Below, piece by piece: positions 8,587-34,430 of a DNA stretch of 34,430 nt; positions within the stretch are counted from its first letter, which is position 1, and each line of letters begins with the position of its first letter. This stretch comes from Melioribacteraceae bacterium (GTDB taxonomy: Bacteria > Bacteroidota > Ignavibacteria > Ignavibacteriales > Melioribacteraceae). Made by a program: the position numbers and the translations under genes. The notes under the pieces were generated by a model that worked only from the letters and a program-made list of their open reading frames with translations, had not been told where the DNA came from and did not search any database. The stretch spans positions 1-34,430 of the forward strand of contig JAFGMI010000039.1 in assembly GCA_016927595.1 (NCBI GenBank), read 5' to 3'.

Positions 8587-9897
8587 TTACTTAATTATAA
8601 GCATTTTTCGTGAGGCTTTAAAGGCACCTGCCGAAAGGGTATATATATACATACCCGAAGGATAATCCGAAGCATCGAACTTAATCTTATAAGACCCGGC
8701 ATTCTGATATTGATTGACAAGCGTAGCAACTTCCCGTCCAAGTATGTCGTAAACAATCAGTTTAATCAGTTGCAGAGACGGGTCCTGAGCTGTCTCTACG
8801 GTTTTAATTGTATATTCAATTGTTGTTGCGGGGTTAAATGGATTGGGATAATTTTGCGCAAGATTATATTTTTCCGGCAAATTTATCTCATCTGCAGTTA
8901 CAATACCATCATTTGAAAAATTATTAAGATTGACCCTGTAAATATTTTCATCACACAGCAGCCACATATAATTATCTGGTGTGATGTGAATATCACGGCC
9001 TTGTAATGTATCCGGCAGTCCGGTAATTTTATTCCATTTTTTTCCATAATCATTGCTTTGGTACAACGATCTATACTGAGTAAACCAAATATTTGAAAGA
9101 CTATTTTGATTATATTCAATATCGTTACCCCAGCCAGCAAGATCAATTGAGGTCGTACTCCACGATTCGCCGCCATCAGAAGTAGTAAAAATATCTTTAT
9201 CAATATATACCATACCATGATCAGCATCGCCGAATTTAATAATCTGAGCGCCTATTGACGGGCAACTAGTTTTACTCCAATTAGCTCCTCCATTTATAGT
9301 TTTATATAGTCCTGCCGGATAAATCCCCGATTCATAAAAATACCCTGTTTCCGGATTAACAAAATCAACCCTGCGCCATAAATCCCCCGACCAGCCGCCT
9401 ATTACCTGGTTGTTCACGGACACCCAATCCGAGCCACCATTAGTTGTTTTCAAAAAAACTGGAACATTGTCATTGCCATCACACATAGCAACACCGTTTT
9501 GGGAATCGAACATTTCGATATAATTGGCAAACATTGTAATGTTATTATCATTAAACTGCAAAATCCAATCAATACCGCCATTAAAAGTAGCATATATTTT
9601 TCCATCTCCGTAAACGAACCAGATATGATCTTTGTCGGTAAATTCAACATCCACGACACCCCAATCAACCGGCACTTGAATGGTATCCCACGAATCACCA
9701 CCATTCGTTGTAATGAATAATGGTCTGTCGTCTTCAGTTCCAATACTAACAACTGCCGTCATACTATCAATAGCATCTATTGCGTAGCCGACACTCCAGT
9801 CGGGCAGGTTTGATGTTTTCAATTGAAACTGTGAATACGTTAATGTGCTGATAAGCAGTAATAATGAAATACAATATTCAATACTTCTTTTCCTCAT
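8587..9897 (-). CDS. secreted Asp-box beta-propeller protein with T9SS sorting domain
   Basis: 436 residues from the ATG at 9897, chosen because GGAGG ends 6 bases upstream; a TTG five codons earlier lacks an RBS. Signal peptide at 1-24 (ISLLLLISTLTYSQ). The body carries at least five Asp-box/YCF48-like repeats (TTNGGDSWD, TFNGGIDWI, TTNGGSDWV, TINGGANWS, TSDGGESWS) plus a weaker SNDYGKKWN, giving a sialidase-like beta-propeller. The end (NYPNPFNPATTIEY ... YDILGREVATLV ... KMLIIK) is the T9SS C-terminal sorting domain, so it is exported and surface-bound or released. Substrate unknown. It starts 16 nt after the pectate lyase stop and is probably co-transcribed with it. A palindromic DNA insert encodes part of its sorting domain. 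Confidence 0.85.
   Translation of the reverse strand: MRKRSIEYCISLLLLISTLTYSQFQLKTSNLPDWSVGYAIDAIDSMTAVVSIGTEDDRPLFITTNGGDSWDTIQVPVDWGVVDVEFTDKDHIWFVYGDGKIYATFNGGIDWILQFNDNNITMFANYIEMFDSQNGVAMCDGNDNVPVFLKTTNGGSDWVSVNNQVIGGWSGDLWRRVDFVNPETGYFYESGIYPAGLYKTINGGANWSKTSCPSIGAQIIKFGDADHGMVYIDKDIFTTSDGGESWSTTSIDLAGWGNDIEYNQNSLSNIWFTQYRSLYQSNDYGKKWNKITGLPDTLQGRDIHITPDNYMWLLCDENIYRVNLNNFSNDGIVTADEINLPEKYNLAQNYPNPFNPATTIEYTIKTVETAQDPSLQLIKLIVYDILGREVATLVNQYQNAGSYKIKFDASDYPSGMYIYTLSAGAFKASRKMLIIK
8770..8801. repeat. GTAGAGAC-type palindrome inside a T9SS sorting domain (copy 1)
   Basis: Imperfect dyad with arms GCAGAGAC (8772-8779) and GTCTCTAC (8792-8799) around GGGTCCTGAGCT. It lies in frame in the CDS and encodes the segment TVETAQDPSLQ between IEYTIK and LIVYDILGRE. 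The 31641-33050 gene lacks this segment. It resembles copies at 10097, 28981 and 31551. Confidence 0.6.
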
Positions 9898-9913
9898 TTT
9901 GCGCCTCCGCAAA

Positions 9914-11821
9914 TTATCTGAGTAATATCATTTTTTTTGCCTGCATAAAATCTGGTGTAACAAGTTTATAGATGTATATCCCCGACGATAGATTATCGCC
10001 GTCAAACACCACTTTATATCTGCCGGGTTTTTGACCTTGGTTTACAAGCACTGCAACTTCGCGTCCGAGTATATCGTACACAATTAATTTAACCGGTTGT
10101 AGAGACGGGTCATAACCATTCTCTACAATTACATTTTTTATTTTGTATTCAATTGTTGTTGCCGGGTTGAACGGGTTCGGATAATTCTGGGCAAGATTGA
10201 ATTCATCCGTCACTATTATATCTTCAACTTCTGTCGGCAGTTCGTTCAGAATTATCTGAGGTATATCTTCAACCGGATCGAGGAAAGACCCGAATTTGTA
10301 CGGAACATTTAATTCACAAACCGGTTCGGAAAAATAATTTGCATCACCAAAATGATTGTCGATTAATTGAACACCGCCATCTATCGGACTGAAATCCATA
10401 AAGACAGCTTTGCCCACGTTTTCAAAATAGTTGCGCTCGACTCTTACACATGCGTTCATCCTTGAATTTATAGCCGTACCGCAGTTGCTGTAATAGTTAT
10501 TAAAAATGTGTGCTTTAGCAAAACGTATACTCGGAAGCCTCGACTCGCAGTTATAAAAATAGTTATGATGATAAGTTATGCGAATTACCGTGTCTTGTCT
10601 ACTGTCGTCACCGGAACTGATAAGACTTGTTTTCCAGTGGTCGTGAAATTTTGTCCACGAAACAGTAATAAATGAGGACTCGTTTTTAATATCGAGAAGT
10701 CCGTCATAATAATCCTGATCATGGTTACGGTCGGAATAGAGATCGCAGTGATCAATCCACACGTTTAATGATTTGCCTGTTATAACGATTGCATCGCCCG
10801 CGTGAACATGAGAGATTTTCAGATTTTTTAGAATAACATTTCTTGCTGAGTTAATTTCAACTTCGATTCCACGCAGACAAGCCGAATCACCGATCCCAAG
10901 AAATGTTTTATCGGAACCGATTTTTAATGTGCCCTCGCCCGATATTTCTTTGGAAAGTGTAACTACCAGCGGCTCGTCACTGCTGAGGTAGTTGGTCAAA
11001 TCCTCATATGATTCTGCGGATACTGTATCGCCTGACGCCCCGCCTATAGTAATAAACGTAGTTCCGGAATCATCCTGCACTGTTGCATAACCTGTAAGAG
11101 CAGGATCAGCTTCGGTTCCATCGGGGAGAAATATTGCTTTCACTAAAATATTATCCCGTATATTAAAAGTAATAACGGAATCATTACTGGTTACATCACC
11201 CGACCAGCTCTGAAAAAAATAGCCGGGATTTGAAAAAGCCCGAAGTGTTACAGTGCTTCCCCCCTCGTAGTAAGACTTTACCGGGTCATAGGATACCGAA
11301 CCCATGTTAATATTATTGACCTCAACCGTCAAGGTATAAAACGGGTTGCAGGTCCCGGGCTGAATGTTATTTCCAACTGCGGCAAAATAATCGTAGTTGC
11401 CCAGCCCATCGGGATCATAGCTTTCCAGCCGGATCTGGTTGTCACCGGCAGTCAACTCCACGTCAAGCGTATCACTACTCGTCCAGTTAATCCAGGTGCC
11501 AGTATGCGGAAAAGAAACAGTATCGATATAAACTTCACCGTTGATTAGCATCCTTGCAGGACGCCCATGCAATGCACCACCGTTGGCATACCGCCACCAG
11601 ATTTGATATATCCCGGAAGTTGGAACGTACAAACTCCAGCTCATACTTACACCAACTCCCCTGTTCGCGTCTGCATATCCGTCACCGGTGTAACCGCTGA
11701 CACTTGTTTCAACCGAGCCGTCTACATTGCAGAAGCCGGCTTCATTTTCCTGAATGATAATTTCCTGTGCGGTTAATAGAGACGCACCTATAATTAAAAA
11801 AATTGTTAATGCAACTCTCAT
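9914..11821 (-). CDS. secreted pectate lyase (PL1) with carbohydrate-binding module and T9SS sorting domain
   Basis: 635 residues. Signal peptide about 1-18 (IFLIIGASLLTAQ). Residues about 20-150 are a CBM35/CBM6-like beta-sandwich (GYADANRGVGVSMSWSLYVP, GDNQIRLESYDPDG). Residues about 160-232 form a small bacterial repeat domain (GYFFQSWSGDVTSNDS). Residues about 240-520 are a parallel beta-helix pectate lyase of family PL1: LKNLKISHVHAGDAI, VWIDHCDLYSD, DYYDGLLDIK with calcium-binding aspartates, and SRLPSIRFAKAHIFNNYY with the catalytic Arg. It should cleave polygalacturonate by calcium-dependent beta-elimination outside the cell. The C-terminus is a T9SS sorting domain. It heads a two-gene leftward unit with the Asp-box protein. 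Confidence 0.92.
   Translation of the reverse strand: MRVALTIFLIIGASLLTAQEIIIQENEAGFCNVDGSVETSVSGYTGDGYADANRGVGVSMSWSLYVPTSGIYQIWWRYANGGALHGRPARMLINGEVYIDTVSFPHTGTWINWTSSDTLDVELTAGDNQIRLESYDPDGLGNYDYFAAVGNNIQPGTCNPFYTLTVEVNNINMGSVSYDPVKSYYEGGSTVTLRAFSNPGYFFQSWSGDVTSNDSVITFNIRDNILVKAIFLPDGTEADPALTGYATVQDDSGTTFITIGGASGDTVSAESYEDLTNYLSSDEPLVVTLSKEISGEGTLKIGSDKTFLGIGDSACLRGIEVEINSARNVILKNLKISHVHAGDAIVITGKSLNVWIDHCDLYSDRNHDQDYYDGLLDIKNESSFITVSWTKFHDHWKTSLISSGDDSRQDTVIRITYHHNYFYNCESRLPSIRFAKAHIFNNYYSNCGTAINSRMNACVRVERNYFENVGKAVFMDFSPIDGGVQLIDNHFGDANYFSEPVCELNVPYKFGSFLDPVEDIPQIILNELPTEVEDIIVTDEFNLAQNYPNPFNPATTIEYKIKNVIVENGYDPSLQPVKLIVYDILGREVAVLVNQGQKPGRYKVVFDGDNLSSGIYIYKLVTPDFMQAKKMILLR
10097..10128. 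repeat. GTAGAGAC-type palindrome inside a T9SS sorting domain (copy 2)
   Basis: Arms TTGTAGAGA (10097-10105) and TCTCTACAA (10120-10128) are perfect inverted repeats around CGGGTCATAACCAT. The element is in frame and encodes IVENGYDPSLQ, at the same place in the sorting domain as copy 1. It is close to the intergenic copy at 31551-31580 (about 26 of 30 bases alike on the opposite strand). Confidence 0.65.
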
Positions 11822-28980: not shown

Positions 28981-29014
28981 GCAGTCGAGACGCATCGAGA
29001 TGCGTCTCTACTGC
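28981..29014. terminator. strong hairpin terminator, member of the GTAGAGAC palindrome family (copy 3)
   Basis: GCAGT-C-GAGACGCAT (28981-28995), loop CGAG, ATGCGTCTC-T-ACTGC (29000-29014): a 15-bp stem with one mismatch, followed on the plus strand by TATTTTATT. It lies between the convergent DinB and T9SS genes and touches the stop codon of the latter. The GAGACGC...GCGTCTCTAC core resembles the palindromes at 8770, 10097 and 31551. Confidence 0.8.
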
Positions 29015-31407
29015 TATTTTATTAAGATCATTTTTTCTGATGTGTTATACTTGCCCACCGAAAGCCTGTAATAATAAATTCCTGATGATAATCCGCTTCC
29101 GTCGAATTCAATTTTATATTTGCCTGATTTCTGTAATTCATCAACAAGCGTGTCAATTATTCGTCCCAGCACATCATAAACCTTTAATATAACCGGAAAC
29201 CTTTGTAAACCGGATTTTGCAGCAACCGTGTATTCAATTGCTGTTGATAGATTAAACGGATTGGGATAATTCTGTTCAAGATTAATTTTGTCCGGCAACA
29301 AATTATTATTATATGCAACGCCTGTTATATTATCCACATCAAAGGTATGGATTATGATTCTTCCATCCATTTCATATACAAATTCGGCAATGAACAGCAC
29401 ATGATTGTATTCATCGTAACATGCAGAAAATATTTCCGCTCTGTCGCCCCAGAAAATATTTTTATTGAATCTCAATGCAGCATATGGCTGGGGTTCGTAG
29501 CTTTCTTTACTGCGGTTCGCAACATCAGCTAAATCCTGCGGATTAAAAAACACTGCCATCGGTATTAAGTTATGCGAGCGCCAGCCCTTACCGTCAGGAT
29601 CAGTTTCAAAAAATTCGGGGTATGGAAGGTCTGCAATTACCCAGTCGTGACGCATGTTTTCTCCATGATAACCGTACCAGTTATCACCACGGGCTTTGTT
29701 TCCTATAACCACAACAGCAGCCTGATCGTTTTTATAAATCCAATCCGCGTCGCGCCACCAGTCGGCGTGATTATAGCCATCAATACTGTTTGGAAAGTTG
29801 TAATTATCCGATTCCTCAACAGGACCGTACTGGAGAAGAGTTGTTATATTTAACTCGCTTCCTGGCTCGGGTACATCGTTACCCAAAAGATCAAATGCAT
29901 ACATAGCCGGTCCCAGTCCGCTTAAACCGCCTTCCCTGTATCTTCCGGTAACAAGAGAATAATTGTTGAATAACTGCTCCCACTCATTATCGATTCTAAA
30001 CAGATAATCGCCAATAGCTGCATCAACAGGCCATTCATCAGCGGGTCCCACATGCCAGGCACCGTACTTATAGCTGTCTGCAAGATCTGAAGAGTTGCAG
30101 AAACTGATTGTAGGATGTTTCTCGCCGGTGACTGTAAAATAAATATTCCATGCACTGTACAACCGGTTCTGTTCTCCAATATACTTTAAACCCGTTCTCC
30201 ATATGTCAACGAATTCCAGATTATTTACGTTATCCGGACGAATATTAACAGGGGTCTGCAGTATACTTACTTCTTTCAACTGTTCAATATCTTTCGAGGA
30301 AGGTATAACCGGCTGCGTCACTGAAACTTCCGCGACGAGACCATTTTCGGGCTGATTAAGATTCATAACGAACAACGAACCCGGGTAGCCGTCGGATGCG
30401 CCTGCTCCTGAAGGTCCGCCATCGCCGTCAATACAGTAAGTAACGGCTTCCGCTCCCCAGCTGAATTCTTCGGGCAGATAGAATGATCCGGCATAAATAA
30501 TCCCGGCAGGATTAATTAAATCATTTGAATGGTTATACGCGTTTGTCGAAACAACTATTAGTTCTGATGGAGTGCTTTCGTTACCGGACATATCAAGCGC
30601 GGTGACACTAAAGGTGTACTCCATCGACGGTTCGAGAAACACTCCAGTATAATCTGATAACCGGGTATATCCTTCAACACTGCCGCCGTTATAAACTAAG
30701 TATTCAGCAGTGCCGGTATTATCGGAAACGTCGTTCCAGTCGAGATAAATTTTTGAATCCGATAGTACCGCTGCGGTAATTCCCGTCGGCTGATCGGGTG
30801 GGACTATATCTGCATCATCATAAAGTTCAATCTTGTCGCATATTAAGAACTGTTTCATGTAGGCGTCGTACCATTCGATAGTAAGATTAATATTAACAAG
30901 GGAATACTCCCCGTCGGTTTTGTGTACGCCCTGTGAGGTAATATTAAAAGCTGTTTTAGCTGATAAATGCGGTTCAATTTCCGCATATGTTTCGCGGTAA
31001 TCCGCAAAACTTCTCATTGTATACCAGCTTCCTTCCGATGCCCCACCTTCAGGCTGGTCTTCATCCGTAAAGCTGATTCGTGAAGTGAAGCGAATCGTCT
31101 CATCCGAGTTATTGTACCATGTAACAACTATACGCTCACCCGGGATGAAATGCCGCGATACACCTTTAACACCCATATAATCAGTAAGCTCGTCTATATT
31201 CTGGGAAAGGTAAACACCGCCGGGACCTTCCGATGAGTAGCTCATATCCGCATTAAGCAACAGGTTATTCCAGTTTTCAAGCTGAAAAGTGTTTTGACCC
31301 GCATCCGATCCGAAATCAACAAGCATCGTGCTCTGCGGTTTAATGTTAGCCGCGGTGAAAAATAAAAAAATCAGAATTGAGAAGGAGGATAGTTTTCTTG
31401 CTTTCAT
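29014..31407 (-). CDS. large secreted protein with fibronectin III domain and T9SS sorting domain
   Basis: 797 residues. RBS AAAGGAGG 5 bases before the ATG. Signal peptide about 1-24 (FSILIFLFFTAANIKPQS). Residues about 25-195 are a beta-sandwich region of unknown type. Residues about 200-290 are a fibronectin type III domain (QPTGITAAVLSDSKIYLDWNDVS ending in ALDMSGNES). Residues about 300-690 have no family I recognise; the segment is rich in Trp, Asp and Gly and looks extracellular. The C-terminus NYPNPFNLSTAIEY ... SGIYYYRLSVG ... KMILIK is a T9SS sorting domain, so the protein is exported to the surface. Function unknown. Confidence 0.82.
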   Translation of the reverse strand: MKARKLSSFSILIFLFFTAANIKPQSTMLVDFGSDAGQNTFQLENWNNLLLNADMSYSSEGPGGVYLSQNIDELTDYMGVKGVSRHFIPGERIVVTWYNNSDETIRFTSRISFTDEDQPEGGASEGSWYTMRSFADYRETYAEIEPHLSAKTAFNITSQGVHKTDGEYSLVNINLTIEWYDAYMKQFLICDKIELYDDADIVPPDQPTGITAAVLSDSKIYLDWNDVSDNTGTAEYLVYNGGSVEGYTRLSDYTGVFLEPSMEYTFSVTALDMSGNESTPSELIVVSTNAYNHSNDLINPAGIIYAGSFYLPEEFSWGAEAVTYCIDGDGGPSGAGASDGYPGSLFVMNLNQPENGLVAEVSVTQPVIPSSKDIEQLKEVSILQTPVNIRPDNVNNLEFVDIWRTGLKYIGEQNRLYSAWNIYFTVTGEKHPTISFCNSSDLADSYKYGAWHVGPADEWPVDAAIGDYLFRIDNEWEQLFNNYSLVTGRYREGGLSGLGPAMYAFDLLGNDVPEPGSELNITTLLQYGPVEESDNYNFPNSIDGYNHADWWRDADWIYKNDQAAVVVIGNKARGDNWYGYHGENMRHDWVIADLPYPEFFETDPDGKGWRSHNLIPMAVFFNPQDLADVANRSKESYEPQPYAALRFNKNIFWGDRAEIFSACYDEYNHVLFIAEFVYEMDGRIIIHTFDVDNITGVAYNNNLLPDKINLEQNYPNPFNLSTAIEYTVAAKSGLQRFPVILKVYDVLGRIIDTLVDELQKSGKYKIEFDGSGLSSGIYYYRLSVGKYNTSEKMILIK

Positions 31408-31550: not shown

Positions 31551-31580
31551 TGTGGAGAAGGGTCATGACCCGTCTCCACA
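31551..31580. repeat. 30-bp intergenic palindrome of the GTAGAGAC family (copy 4)
   Basis: TGTGGAGAAGGGTCA followed by TGACCCGTCTCCACA: a 30-bp inverted repeat with no loop and a single mismatched pair (31559 with 31572). It lies 60 bp past the stop of the leftward 31641 gene and may serve as its terminator, although no T-tract follows. Its opposite strand is closely similar to the coding copy at 10097-10128. Confidence 0.8.
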
Positions 31581-31640: not shown

Positions 31641-33050
31641 TTATTTCATCAGCAGCATTTTTTTACTTGCTGTAAATCCCCTGTTTTCCTTACTTAAGGC
31701 ATCTACTTTTATTGTATAGACATAAACGCCGCTTGCAAGATTATCCCCGCTGAATGACACATTATATACACCCATATCTTTAGTTTCATTCACAAGTTCG
31801 GCCACTTCCTTGCCCAGCATATCATATACCTTAATTGTTACATGTCCCTGTTCCGGAAGCTGATAGTGTCTCTGGGTTGCCGGATTGAACGGATTCGGGA
31901 AGTTGGAAATCGAGTACTCGGAAACAATAAGGCTGGTGTTATCCGTATTTTCGACTTTTTCTTTCATAAACGGATCGGCTTCGTATCCGATGGCGAAGTT
32001 ATAGTCGATATCGGAATAAGTTCCCGCAGGTGAGTAATATGCCTGAACGCTGTATTCAAGACTGGTTTTTAAGCCACCTCCGGTTAAAGAATACTCATAA
32101 TCGATAAACTGTGTCGTTCCCCTTGAAACGGTGCCGATAGTCACCGGCGATAAATATCCTCTCTTTCTGGTAATGAGATAACTTGTTACTGAAGTATTGG
32201 GGTGATCATTCCAGTTGAGCTGAATAAACTCTTCGGGGTCACTACTCGCAGTTATGGTAAGTCCCCGGTAGTCGTTATCGCTGAACATAGGTTTGGCGGA
32301 ATAGTCAGCCGATACATTGGAATGCTGGCTTATATTAAAGGAGGTTGATAAACTTGTTGAACTATTGCTCCATTGCGAGAAAGTGTGCAGTATGCCGTTT
32401 ATCTGGTAGGTCTGCTGCGCCTCAGCGGTAATATTGTTTTGCTCAACAACCTGTATTGAGGAAGTAGGGGCGCTTTGCCATACACCGTTCACCTTTACCT
32501 GACCTCCGTATGAACTGCCGATGAACTGGTTGGAGAAACTTACGTTACATATTTTGCGAAGATTTGCTTGAATTATTGTATTTCTATCATTAGATGACAC
32601 ATTATATGATGTATTTTGACTTGATGAAAACAAATTAAATCCTTGGGATTCAAGCTTATATGTCCAATTACTATTATTTGTACCATTGGTGTTCCAAATA
32701 TAATTATAAGATCCATCCGTCTGTTCTATTGCCCCGAGTCCAATATTATCTCCTGTGGTCGATGTTCTGTCATAAGGCGAAGACTTTGTTAATCCGTCAA
32801 CACTAATGTTTCCTCCTCCAAAATTATTTTGAATTCTTATTTTAAATTTCACCTCAACTGTATATGTTTGACTATCCCAAACAATAAAGTCATAACAATT
32901 CAGCGTCTGGGGATCTATACTCATTAATTTGAAATTTACTTCGTGTGTGCCATTAGTTAAATTGACTGTAACATATCCTGGTAGATATTCTTCGATGTTA
33001 TCACAGAGATCATAAGGGGATACAACATCATTGTCTACGGAAATAACCAA
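31641..33050 (-). CDS. T9SS cargo protein, main part of a gene interrupted by an in-frame stop
   Basis: The open part gives 469 residues if begun at a TTG at 33050, which has no RBS and no signal peptide. Body: extracellular beta-rich segments, a VNGVWQSAPTSSIQVVEQN repeat-like domain (about 190-255), a fibronectin III-like domain (about 265-350, IQLNWNDHPNTSVTSYLITRK), and a T9SS sorting domain NFPNPFNPATQRHY ... YDMLGKEVAEL ... KKMLLMK. The same reading frame continues upstream past a TAA (33087-33089) into a signal peptide with a good RBS at 33248, so this looks like one secreted protein of about 535 codons broken by a nonsense mutation. Without the signal peptide the sorting domain would be useless. 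Confidence 0.75.
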   Translation of the reverse strand: MVISVDNDVVSPYDLCDNIEEYLPGYVTVNLTNGTHEVNFKLMSIDPQTLNCYDFIVWDSQTYTVEVKFKIRIQNNFGGGNISVDGLTKSSPYDRTSTTGDNIGLGAIEQTDGSYNYIWNTNGTNNSNWTYKLESQGFNLFSSSQNTSYNVSSNDRNTIIQANLRKICNVSFSNQFIGSSYGGQVKVNGVWQSAPTSSIQVVEQNNITAEAQQTYQINGILHTFSQWSNSSTSLSTSFNISQHSNVSADYSAKPMFSDNDYRGLTITASSDPEEFIQLNWNDHPNTSVTSYLITRKRGYLSPVTIGTVSRGTTQFIDYEYSLTGGGLKTSLEYSVQAYYSPAGTYSDIDYNFAIGYEADPFMKEKVENTDNTSLIVSEYSISNFPNPFNPATQRHYQLPEQGHVTIKVYDMLGKEVAELVNETKDMGVYNVSFSGDNLASGVYVYTIKVDALSKENRGFTASKKMLLMK

Positions 33051-34323: not shown

Positions 34324-34350
34324 TCGAGTTGACAATACTTGTCATCTTAC

Positions 34351-34430
34351 TTCGACAAGCCTGCCTGCGGCAGACAAGCTCACACTTCGACAAGCCTGCC
34401 TGCGGCAGACAAGCTCACACTTCGACAAGC
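34351..34430. repeat. 35-bp tandem repeat running off the right edge
   Basis: Two identical 35-bp units (34351-34385 and 34386-34420) and the first 10 bases of a third (34421-34430). Each unit begins TTCGACAAGC and contains the palindrome CTGCC-TGC-GGCAG flanked by direct ACAAGC repeats. No spacer lies between units, so it is not a CRISPR array. The full length is unknown because the window ends inside it. Confidence 0.9.

Follow-up and report, generated by a model that had tools for sequence, protein, structure and literature searches.

The window analysed here, a stretch of 34,430 nucleotides (nt) on contig JAFGMI010000039.1 of the Melioribacteraceae bacterium assembly GCA_016927595.1, carries two neighbouring genes on the minus strand: one for a BNR/Ycf48-like repeat protein (8587-9912, from profile matches and the list of open reading frames) and one for a pectate lyase with a Pectate_lyase_4 domain and a divergent InlB B-repeat domain (9914-11821, from profile matches). 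Each product also has a sorting domain of the type IX secretion system (T9SS), and in the first hairpin loop of each sorting domain a repetitive extragenic palindrome (REP) is read in frame. REPs are usually regarded as extragenic. In related genomes, REPs with many different centres occupy this same loop, at nearly the same nucleotide and in a single frame.

Two in-frame palindromes in neighbouring sorting domains

The two sorting domains (TIGR04183; 8596-8850 and 9926-10183, minus strand) scored 39.5 and 30.8 bits with TIGR04183 against a cut-off of 23, which places them in that family, and 38.3 and 28.8 with PF18962 (cut-off 27); by profile and predicted fold, both are T9SS type A sorting domains with a putative role in export. 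Both have an extra stretch between the first strand and LIVYDILGRE, i.e. in the first hairpin loop (s1-s2). A first-pass annotation had described these stretches as segments ending in DPSLQ (TVETAQDPSLQ and IVENGYDPSLQ), encoded by palindromic DNA in one shared reading frame and replaced by a short junction in the gene ending at 31641, and had proposed that a repeat had become part of a protein export signal, in a loop. The peptides, their endings, the short junction and the frame are as it claimed, and the proposal is supported.

The underlying sequences are degenerate copies, both on the minus strand, of a 28-nt palindrome with the consensus GTAGAGACGGGTCATGACCCGTCTCTAC. The first (8772-8799, read VETAQDPSLQ) matches it at 24 of 28 positions, having lost one foot base, and the second (10099-10126, read VENGYDPSLQ) at 25; their feet lie at nt 51 and nt 57, counted from the YPNPF codons. 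When the window was shuffled in triplets 20 times, the best plus-strand matches were 15-19/28. Aligned to the REP set, the two copies score 22 and 20, and their shuffles at most 11.5. Self-complementarity alone is modest, the pectate-lyase copy scoring 9.0, equal to the 99th percentile for codon-shuffled sorting domains, and its counterpart less than 8.5, so it is the family match that makes the window copies secure. The palindrome belongs to the 'double-foot' GTAG REPs, which are linked to REP-associated tyrosine transposases (RAYTs). In 44 different copies, collected with a pattern that fixed the outer arms and left the inner 12 nt free, those inner positions pair in 230 of 264 cells, which establishes a palindromic stem at the level of the family.

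A search of the 3.85-Mb genome with up to three mismatches found six places, and the reversed control pattern none. Two are the sorting-domain copies, three lie just 3' of sorting-domain genes, and one is in a 180-residue frame on contig C30. The three 3' places are one on contig C5, within 100 nt of a sorting-domain gene, and two intergenic copies in the window: one of the sister CGCAT..ATGCG subtype (28984-29011, unstranded; 21/28 consensus bases), 2 nt beyond the gene ending at 29014, and one of the GGGTCATGACCC type (31552-31579, unstranded; 25/28), like both in-frame copies, 61 nt beyond the gene ending at 31641. A looser pattern returned four of the same six places from the whole genome and none besides; it is unspecific, since its reversed control matched five times.

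The genes beside the intergenic copies supply two further sorting domains on the minus strand for comparison. That of the gene ending at 29014 (29026-29268) has a longer s1-s2 loop without REP match, and that of the gene ending at 31641 (31698-31901) has a short loop (YQLPEQGHVTIKVYD) and serves as the empty comparison. Close to the contig end, at 34349-34418, the window also holds two identical 35-nt units head to tail (ACTTCGACAAGCCTGCCTGCGGCAGACAAGCTCAC).

One loop, one nucleotide and one frame

We searched 58 genomes, this one and its relatives, for perfect palindromes, a set from which the degenerate window copies are by definition absent. There were 119 copies in 25 of the 58 genomes (this one included), of which 118 were classified, one copy from genome G033 being left out. 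Of these, 33 lie in the s1-s2 loop and 1 in a different loop of a sorting domain; 16 follow the stop codon of a sorting-domain gene within 250 nt; 12 fall in RAYT frames, a class assigned by a loose rule, and 56 elsewhere. For L391 and the second G042 copy, a place near the loop and not inside it is possible. The s1-s2 copies come from eight genomes (G003, G015, G025, G029, G032, G033, G042 and G047); crowding is strongest in G042, with 16 of its 18 perfect copies in sorting domains and the other two in or beside a RAYT gene.

Within the loop, position and frame are nearly invariant. When positions are numbered from the first base of YPNPF, the foot starts at nt 51 in 30 of the 33 perfect copies and at 48, 54 and 72 in the others; the copy at 72 lies in a domain with about seven additional codons upstream. 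The frame is 0 in all 33, though a second frame is open. Fourteen different centres occur there, and some of these differ from each other by one or two bases; the same nucleotide is also occupied by a different stem (L265, L305) and by a two-hairpin element (L260) in named metagenome genomes. The right edge is variable: compared with a canonical length of 24, loops measure 27 to 39, and 44 where the additional codons are present. In 13 of 16 REP-bearing domains of G042 and one of two of G032 the loop is about three residues longer, and the REP-encoded SLR or SLQ replaces the usual TLK that starts s2. The first-pass annotation had asked whether inserts always encode xxxDPSLQ or TSLQ-like peptides; they mostly do, the usual form being VETxxxxSL(Q/R/H), with variants such as VETTRRVVST.

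Other repeats were observed in the same domains. One sorting domain of G003 (L159) holds two different REPs, in s1-s2 (VETRHGESLQ) and before SGVYFY (VETRHASSLP). In L244 and L249 of G033, a second loop before SGIYFY holds another palindromic repeat (GCGCAGATTTCCAATCTGCGC in L244, read AQISNLR), and several G033 domains have related peptides in that second loop (QISNLRY, ANRRFAL, TQLARQGGNAEL). Five further loci from named metagenome genomes (L263, L307, L332, L280 and L264) have s1-s2 palindromes or repeat-like peptides without the GTAG foot (CCCCTCCTTGGAGGGG, ATTCCGGCGAAGGCCGGAAT, TCCCCCCTTTACCAAAGGGGGGA; peptides such as VIASGAKQS and FDFAQDD), which suggests that other repeat families may use this loop too.

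Copies outside the sorting domains also lie near them. In the first set, 14 of the 70 such perfect copies stood 0-250 nt after a sorting-domain stop, and just four others had a sorting domain elsewhere in the fetched stretch of about 3 kb. A rough binomial against an assumed non-coding share of 10% gives p 1e-4 for these 14 of 70; we attach little weight to our binomials for excess, which rest on round genome figures and on the 87 copies available while G042 and G030 were still incomplete, and assume that copies are independent. The 3' copies could reflect the exchange of whole 3' ends, as illustrated by L140 and L141, near-identical domains with REP copies 40 and 41 nt past the stop, or a role as transcript end. 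Sorting domains of this kind were also seen in records titled Candidatus Nomurabacteria and Candidatus Brocadia (L325, L327), possibly mis-binned contigs.

Long loops, palindromes and tolerance of the insert

An insert present in all sorting domains without palindromic DNA, as an ancestral loop would be, was not what we found. Parsing by short motifs recovered 86 sorting domains in this genome (99 profile matches) and 88 in G033 (101 matches), and 69 and 64 of these, respectively, have a loop of canonical length. Among 69 loops of length 27 or more, pooled from all sources, 29 held a strong palindrome. At the same threshold there was none in 69 stretches of equal length taken from these domains, or in 236 canonical loops. 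This pool of 69 is biased: 11 loops (9 palindromic) come from loci mostly fetched for a palindrome, and 27 (9 palindromic) from named loci picked by similarity to an insert-bearing domain. In the sets meant to be complete, 1 of 13 long loops is palindromic in this genome and 10 of 18 in G033, two further G033 domains being counted under a named locus. In G033 the insert, or a form derived from it, is present in 16 of the 88 parsed sorting domains. In this genome the two window loops alone match REPs clearly, and 11 of the 13 long loops have no convincing match. A loop of length 26 (L024) scored 12.5, against a maximum of 12.0 both in its 60 shuffles and among canonical loops, and was not counted as a REP. 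The long loops without a match otherwise scored within the range of their own shuffles; a candidate relic in a contig C40 loop (VADVHRDKPLQ, as if from VETHRDASLQ) was rejected with a DNA score of 8, inside the range of its shuffles (maximum 12).

The first domain was modelled with AlphaFold2 from 63 aligned sequences (mean predicted local distance difference test score, pLDDT, 86). In the model the insert lies between strands predicted at residues 12-19 and 31-39, and residues 21-30 have a mean pLDDT of 66. A fold search of the model against the PDB gave no match at E ≤0.001, with the mirolase sorting domain (8qb1) fourth at E 0.013; a profile search found the Por sorting domain 8glj at E 1e-4. 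The RgpB domain has its s1-s2 hairpin exposed at one of its ends (PMC4804311), and cryo-electron microscopy depicts a plastic translocon pocket and a poorly conserved contact surface on the sorting domain (PMC10994853). Because the modelled insert lies between strands, the hairpin is exposed in RgpB and the pocket is plastic, it is plausible, from the predicted fold and the intact reading frames, that the loop tolerates the insert.

Transposase genes

The REP-bearing frame of 180 amino acids on contig C30 of this genome (G000) is a RAYT frame, matching NCBIfam REP_Tyr_transpos at E 1.8e-13, below the equivalog cut-off, and Pfam Y1_Tnp at E 0.005, also below the cut-off. Its own REP follows MPNHFHGII and is read VETHRDASLR, and a GTAGAGAC lies 78 nt ahead of the open frame. 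RAYT-like genes occur in 26 of the 58 genomes (E 1e-15 or better); the four RAYTs tested against NCBIfam REP_Tyr_transpos gave E values of 2e-13 to 3e-16, all below its cut-off. The GTAGAGAC arm follows the HuH motif in 9 of 18 parsed RAYT frames, two of these nine (L339 and L347) having internal stop codons. A link between REPs and RAYTs appears only for genomes with at least six REP copies (RAYT in 7/8 versus 19/50, p 0.017). One RAYT frame, in G049 (L128), contains tandem REP-encoded units (VETGHV VETGHA VETGHA VETGHA VETGHALSLQ), i.e. REP-derived repeats within a transposase frame.

Age and spread

Mean pairwise identity at third codon positions was compared along the domain. In 12 G033 domains with a loop of 32, chosen by length alone, it is 0.83 in the insert (one of the twelve inserts is no longer recognisable), 0.59 in the preceding 51 nt, 0.64 over the 15 nt that follow the insert and 0.56 further on; an earlier figure of 0.94 was discarded as inflated, its copies having been picked by the REP pattern. 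In the eleven with VE(T/M)(G/R)YIPS the values are 0.92 in the insert, 0.61 before it, 0.73 in the 15 nt after it and 0.54 beyond, and 24 canonical domains give 0.45-0.46 on both sides. The REP in G033 is more uniform than its domain, and from these identities it looks younger than the surrounding domain, or homogenised faster, and its boundary is abrupt on the left and gradual on the right.

On trees built without the loop, which are weakly resolved, long loops in this genome need 5 changes against 11.4 for shuffled labels, and 1 is forced. At L183 (G010), two adjacent genes have near-identical sorting domains, pointing to the copying of domains between neighbours.

Discussion

We consider it probable that GTAG REPs spread by RAYTs are retained at the exposed, many-copy s1-s2 hairpin and are multiplied there by re-insertion or short gene conversion. 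RAYTs would spread REPs of the double-foot GTAG type, and insertions would be lost from most genes and kept where reading frame and fold survive. The main refuge would be the T9SS sorting domain, with its exposed s1-s2 hairpin and about 100 copies in each of the two genomes counted. There the 28 nt, in frame 0, would usually be read V-E-T-x4-S-L-(Q/R), forming the hairpin turn and leading into s2 (canonically V-T/S-L-K); once in place, copies would be amplified through re-insertion or short-patch conversion from one sorting domain to another, and would decay. Mobilisation of these REPs by RAYTs, and the choice between insertion and conversion, are what we infer from this pattern, and insert-bearing sorting domains presumably still export.

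Several observations weigh against this explanation: (i) 17 of the 25 REP-bearing genomes have no copy in a sorting domain, among them such REP-rich ones as G012 (0/9), G030 (0/10), G046 (0/6) and G049 (0/14); (ii) much of the count consists of near-identical copies, one centre being common to 12 of the 16 in G042; (iii) the presence of REPs in a genome is not clearly associated with that of a RAYT (14/25 versus 12/33, p 0.18); (iv) plain tolerance would not predict a left edge as nearly constant as this, and inspection by eye showed no target motif in the flanks; (v) no clean empty site was found, and loop lengths vary; and (vi) on the G033 tree the REP label and the long-loop label need 8 changes each (16.6 for shuffles of the long-loop label) with 4 forced, and on the cross-genome tree (31 insert rows, 95/236 canonical rows) 18 changes are needed against 27.8 when shuffled, with as few as 1 forced. 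Since few changes are forced on weakly resolved trees, part of the set may share common descent; repeated gain together with transfer fits best, and descent may account for part of the pattern.

Two candidates bearing on the site were set aside. The bases ahead of the foot (AAC, AGC, GGC, ACC, GTT, GCG, ACT, TCC, AAT) share, by eye and short of a formal motif test, nothing but the strand codons, and a DNA target motif for insertion was rejected on that comparison. Full-length relatives of the pectate lyase in G008 and G010 (55% and 54%) have short loops and were rejected as empty sites for having sorting domains that are too different; since they differ so much, the whole sorting domain may have been exchanged there.

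A more far-reaching proposal, which we raise tentatively and consider rather unlikely, would make the s1-s2 hairpin a standing REP niche. The transposase, or conversion started at the GTAG foot, would insert REPs at a single nucleotide whatever their centre; the peptide read in frame 0 would fit the domain in such a way that the 3' arm can act as s2; and the shared palindromes would in turn drive the exchange of sorting domains among secreted proteins, amounting to mutual adaptation of a selfish palindrome and an export signal. It is unlikely, in our judgement, that the pattern goes back to one old REP insertion in an ancestral sorting domain, copied as a family between genes and species, with its left edge inherited and its centres later altered through conversion with the other REPs present in each genome. 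Such descent would account for the shared start nucleotide in 30 of 33 copies and the single frame, for the clustering of long-loop and insert-bearing domains on trees beyond that of shuffled labels, and it would draw on the copying of domains between neighbours seen at L183; but it has to accommodate 14 centres, a different stem and a two-hairpin element at the same nucleotide, several insert domains whose nearest neighbours are insert-free, and the G033 insert in the length-picked set, which is more uniform than its domain.

We regard it as very improbable that selection acted on the peptide, with the VETxxxxSLQ hairpin itself useful (e.g. in binding PorV, SprA or a sortase) and the palindrome a by-product. 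The exclusive use of frame 0 with a second frame open, and the replacement of the start of s2 by REP residues in G042 and G032, are what it would predict, but the middle four residues change with the DNA centre, the insert is absent from most domains of the same genomes, and its third positions in G033 are nearly as uniform as all positions (0.83 versus 0.89), which indicates copying at the DNA level. That long s1-s2 loops are simply common and their palindromes coincidental, as the 11 of 13 long loops of this genome without convincing REP match and the weakness of the window copies as palindromes judged alone might suggest, is scarcely credible against alignment scores of 22 and 20 with shuffles at or below 11.5, palindromes in 29 of 69 long loops and in none of the matched stretches or canonical loops, and perfect copies in the sorting domains of eight relatives.

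With retention and multiplication of REPs at the hairpin as the preferred explanation, peptides derived from mobile-type DNA would have become part of many secretion signals, and one export domain holds 34 of the 118 classified perfect copies. These domains form a natural set of insertions at one mapped site, with which the tolerance of the T9SS translocon could be tested; gain or loss in such multi-copy loops could also serve as a measure of RAYT activity. They also carry a warning: loops with VETxxxxSLQ-like peptides should be taken as mobile DNA and not as a conserved signal.

Comparison with known systems

We know of no link between the Rickettsia palindromic elements (RPEs) and a sorting domain. 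In RPEs, as here, palindromic DNA adds peptides to unrelated proteins; they differ in host, and RPE-1 is described as longer (PMC3733652). The window domains share with the T9SS type A sorting domain (TIGR04183; RgpB domain, PMC4804311; translocon, PMC10994853) a profile score above cut-off and a predicted beta sandwich, and differ from it by about 8-10 REP-encoded extra residues in the s1-s2 turn.

REPs usually exceed 100 copies per genome (PMC2817692), a number not reached here, with 6 places in this genome and 0 to 18 perfect copies per genome among the 58 (perfect copies only being counted in relatives). The closest published relatives are the REPs of TnpAREP subclass 2.4 (PMC6006769), which likewise have two feet, GTAG and CTAC, at opposite ends, are accompanied by a RAYT with NHxH and include a REP inside the RAYT frame after the HuH motif; this likeness is one of REP and RAYT features. 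The difference is that here a large share of copies in some genomes lies in T9SS sorting domains, at nearly one nucleotide. GTAG and CGTC REPs inside protein genes have also been published, with loops or linkers proposed as tolerant sites (PMC3733652), and share with ours the in-frame translation. Since REPs inside genes and RAYT genes are already on record, neither the type of element nor its in-frame insertion is new. We found no report of REPs recurring in T9SS sorting domains in the open literature, outside which subscription papers mostly fall. The intragenic sites described in PMC3733652 are scattered, many of them in DNA repair genes, with one shared site (recB, in two Xanthomonas species), whereas in the present genomes a single loop of a single export domain accommodates different REPs from genus to genus. 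What appears to be new is that REPs of many centres, in several genera, use one T9SS sorting-domain loop at nearly one nucleotide and in one frame.

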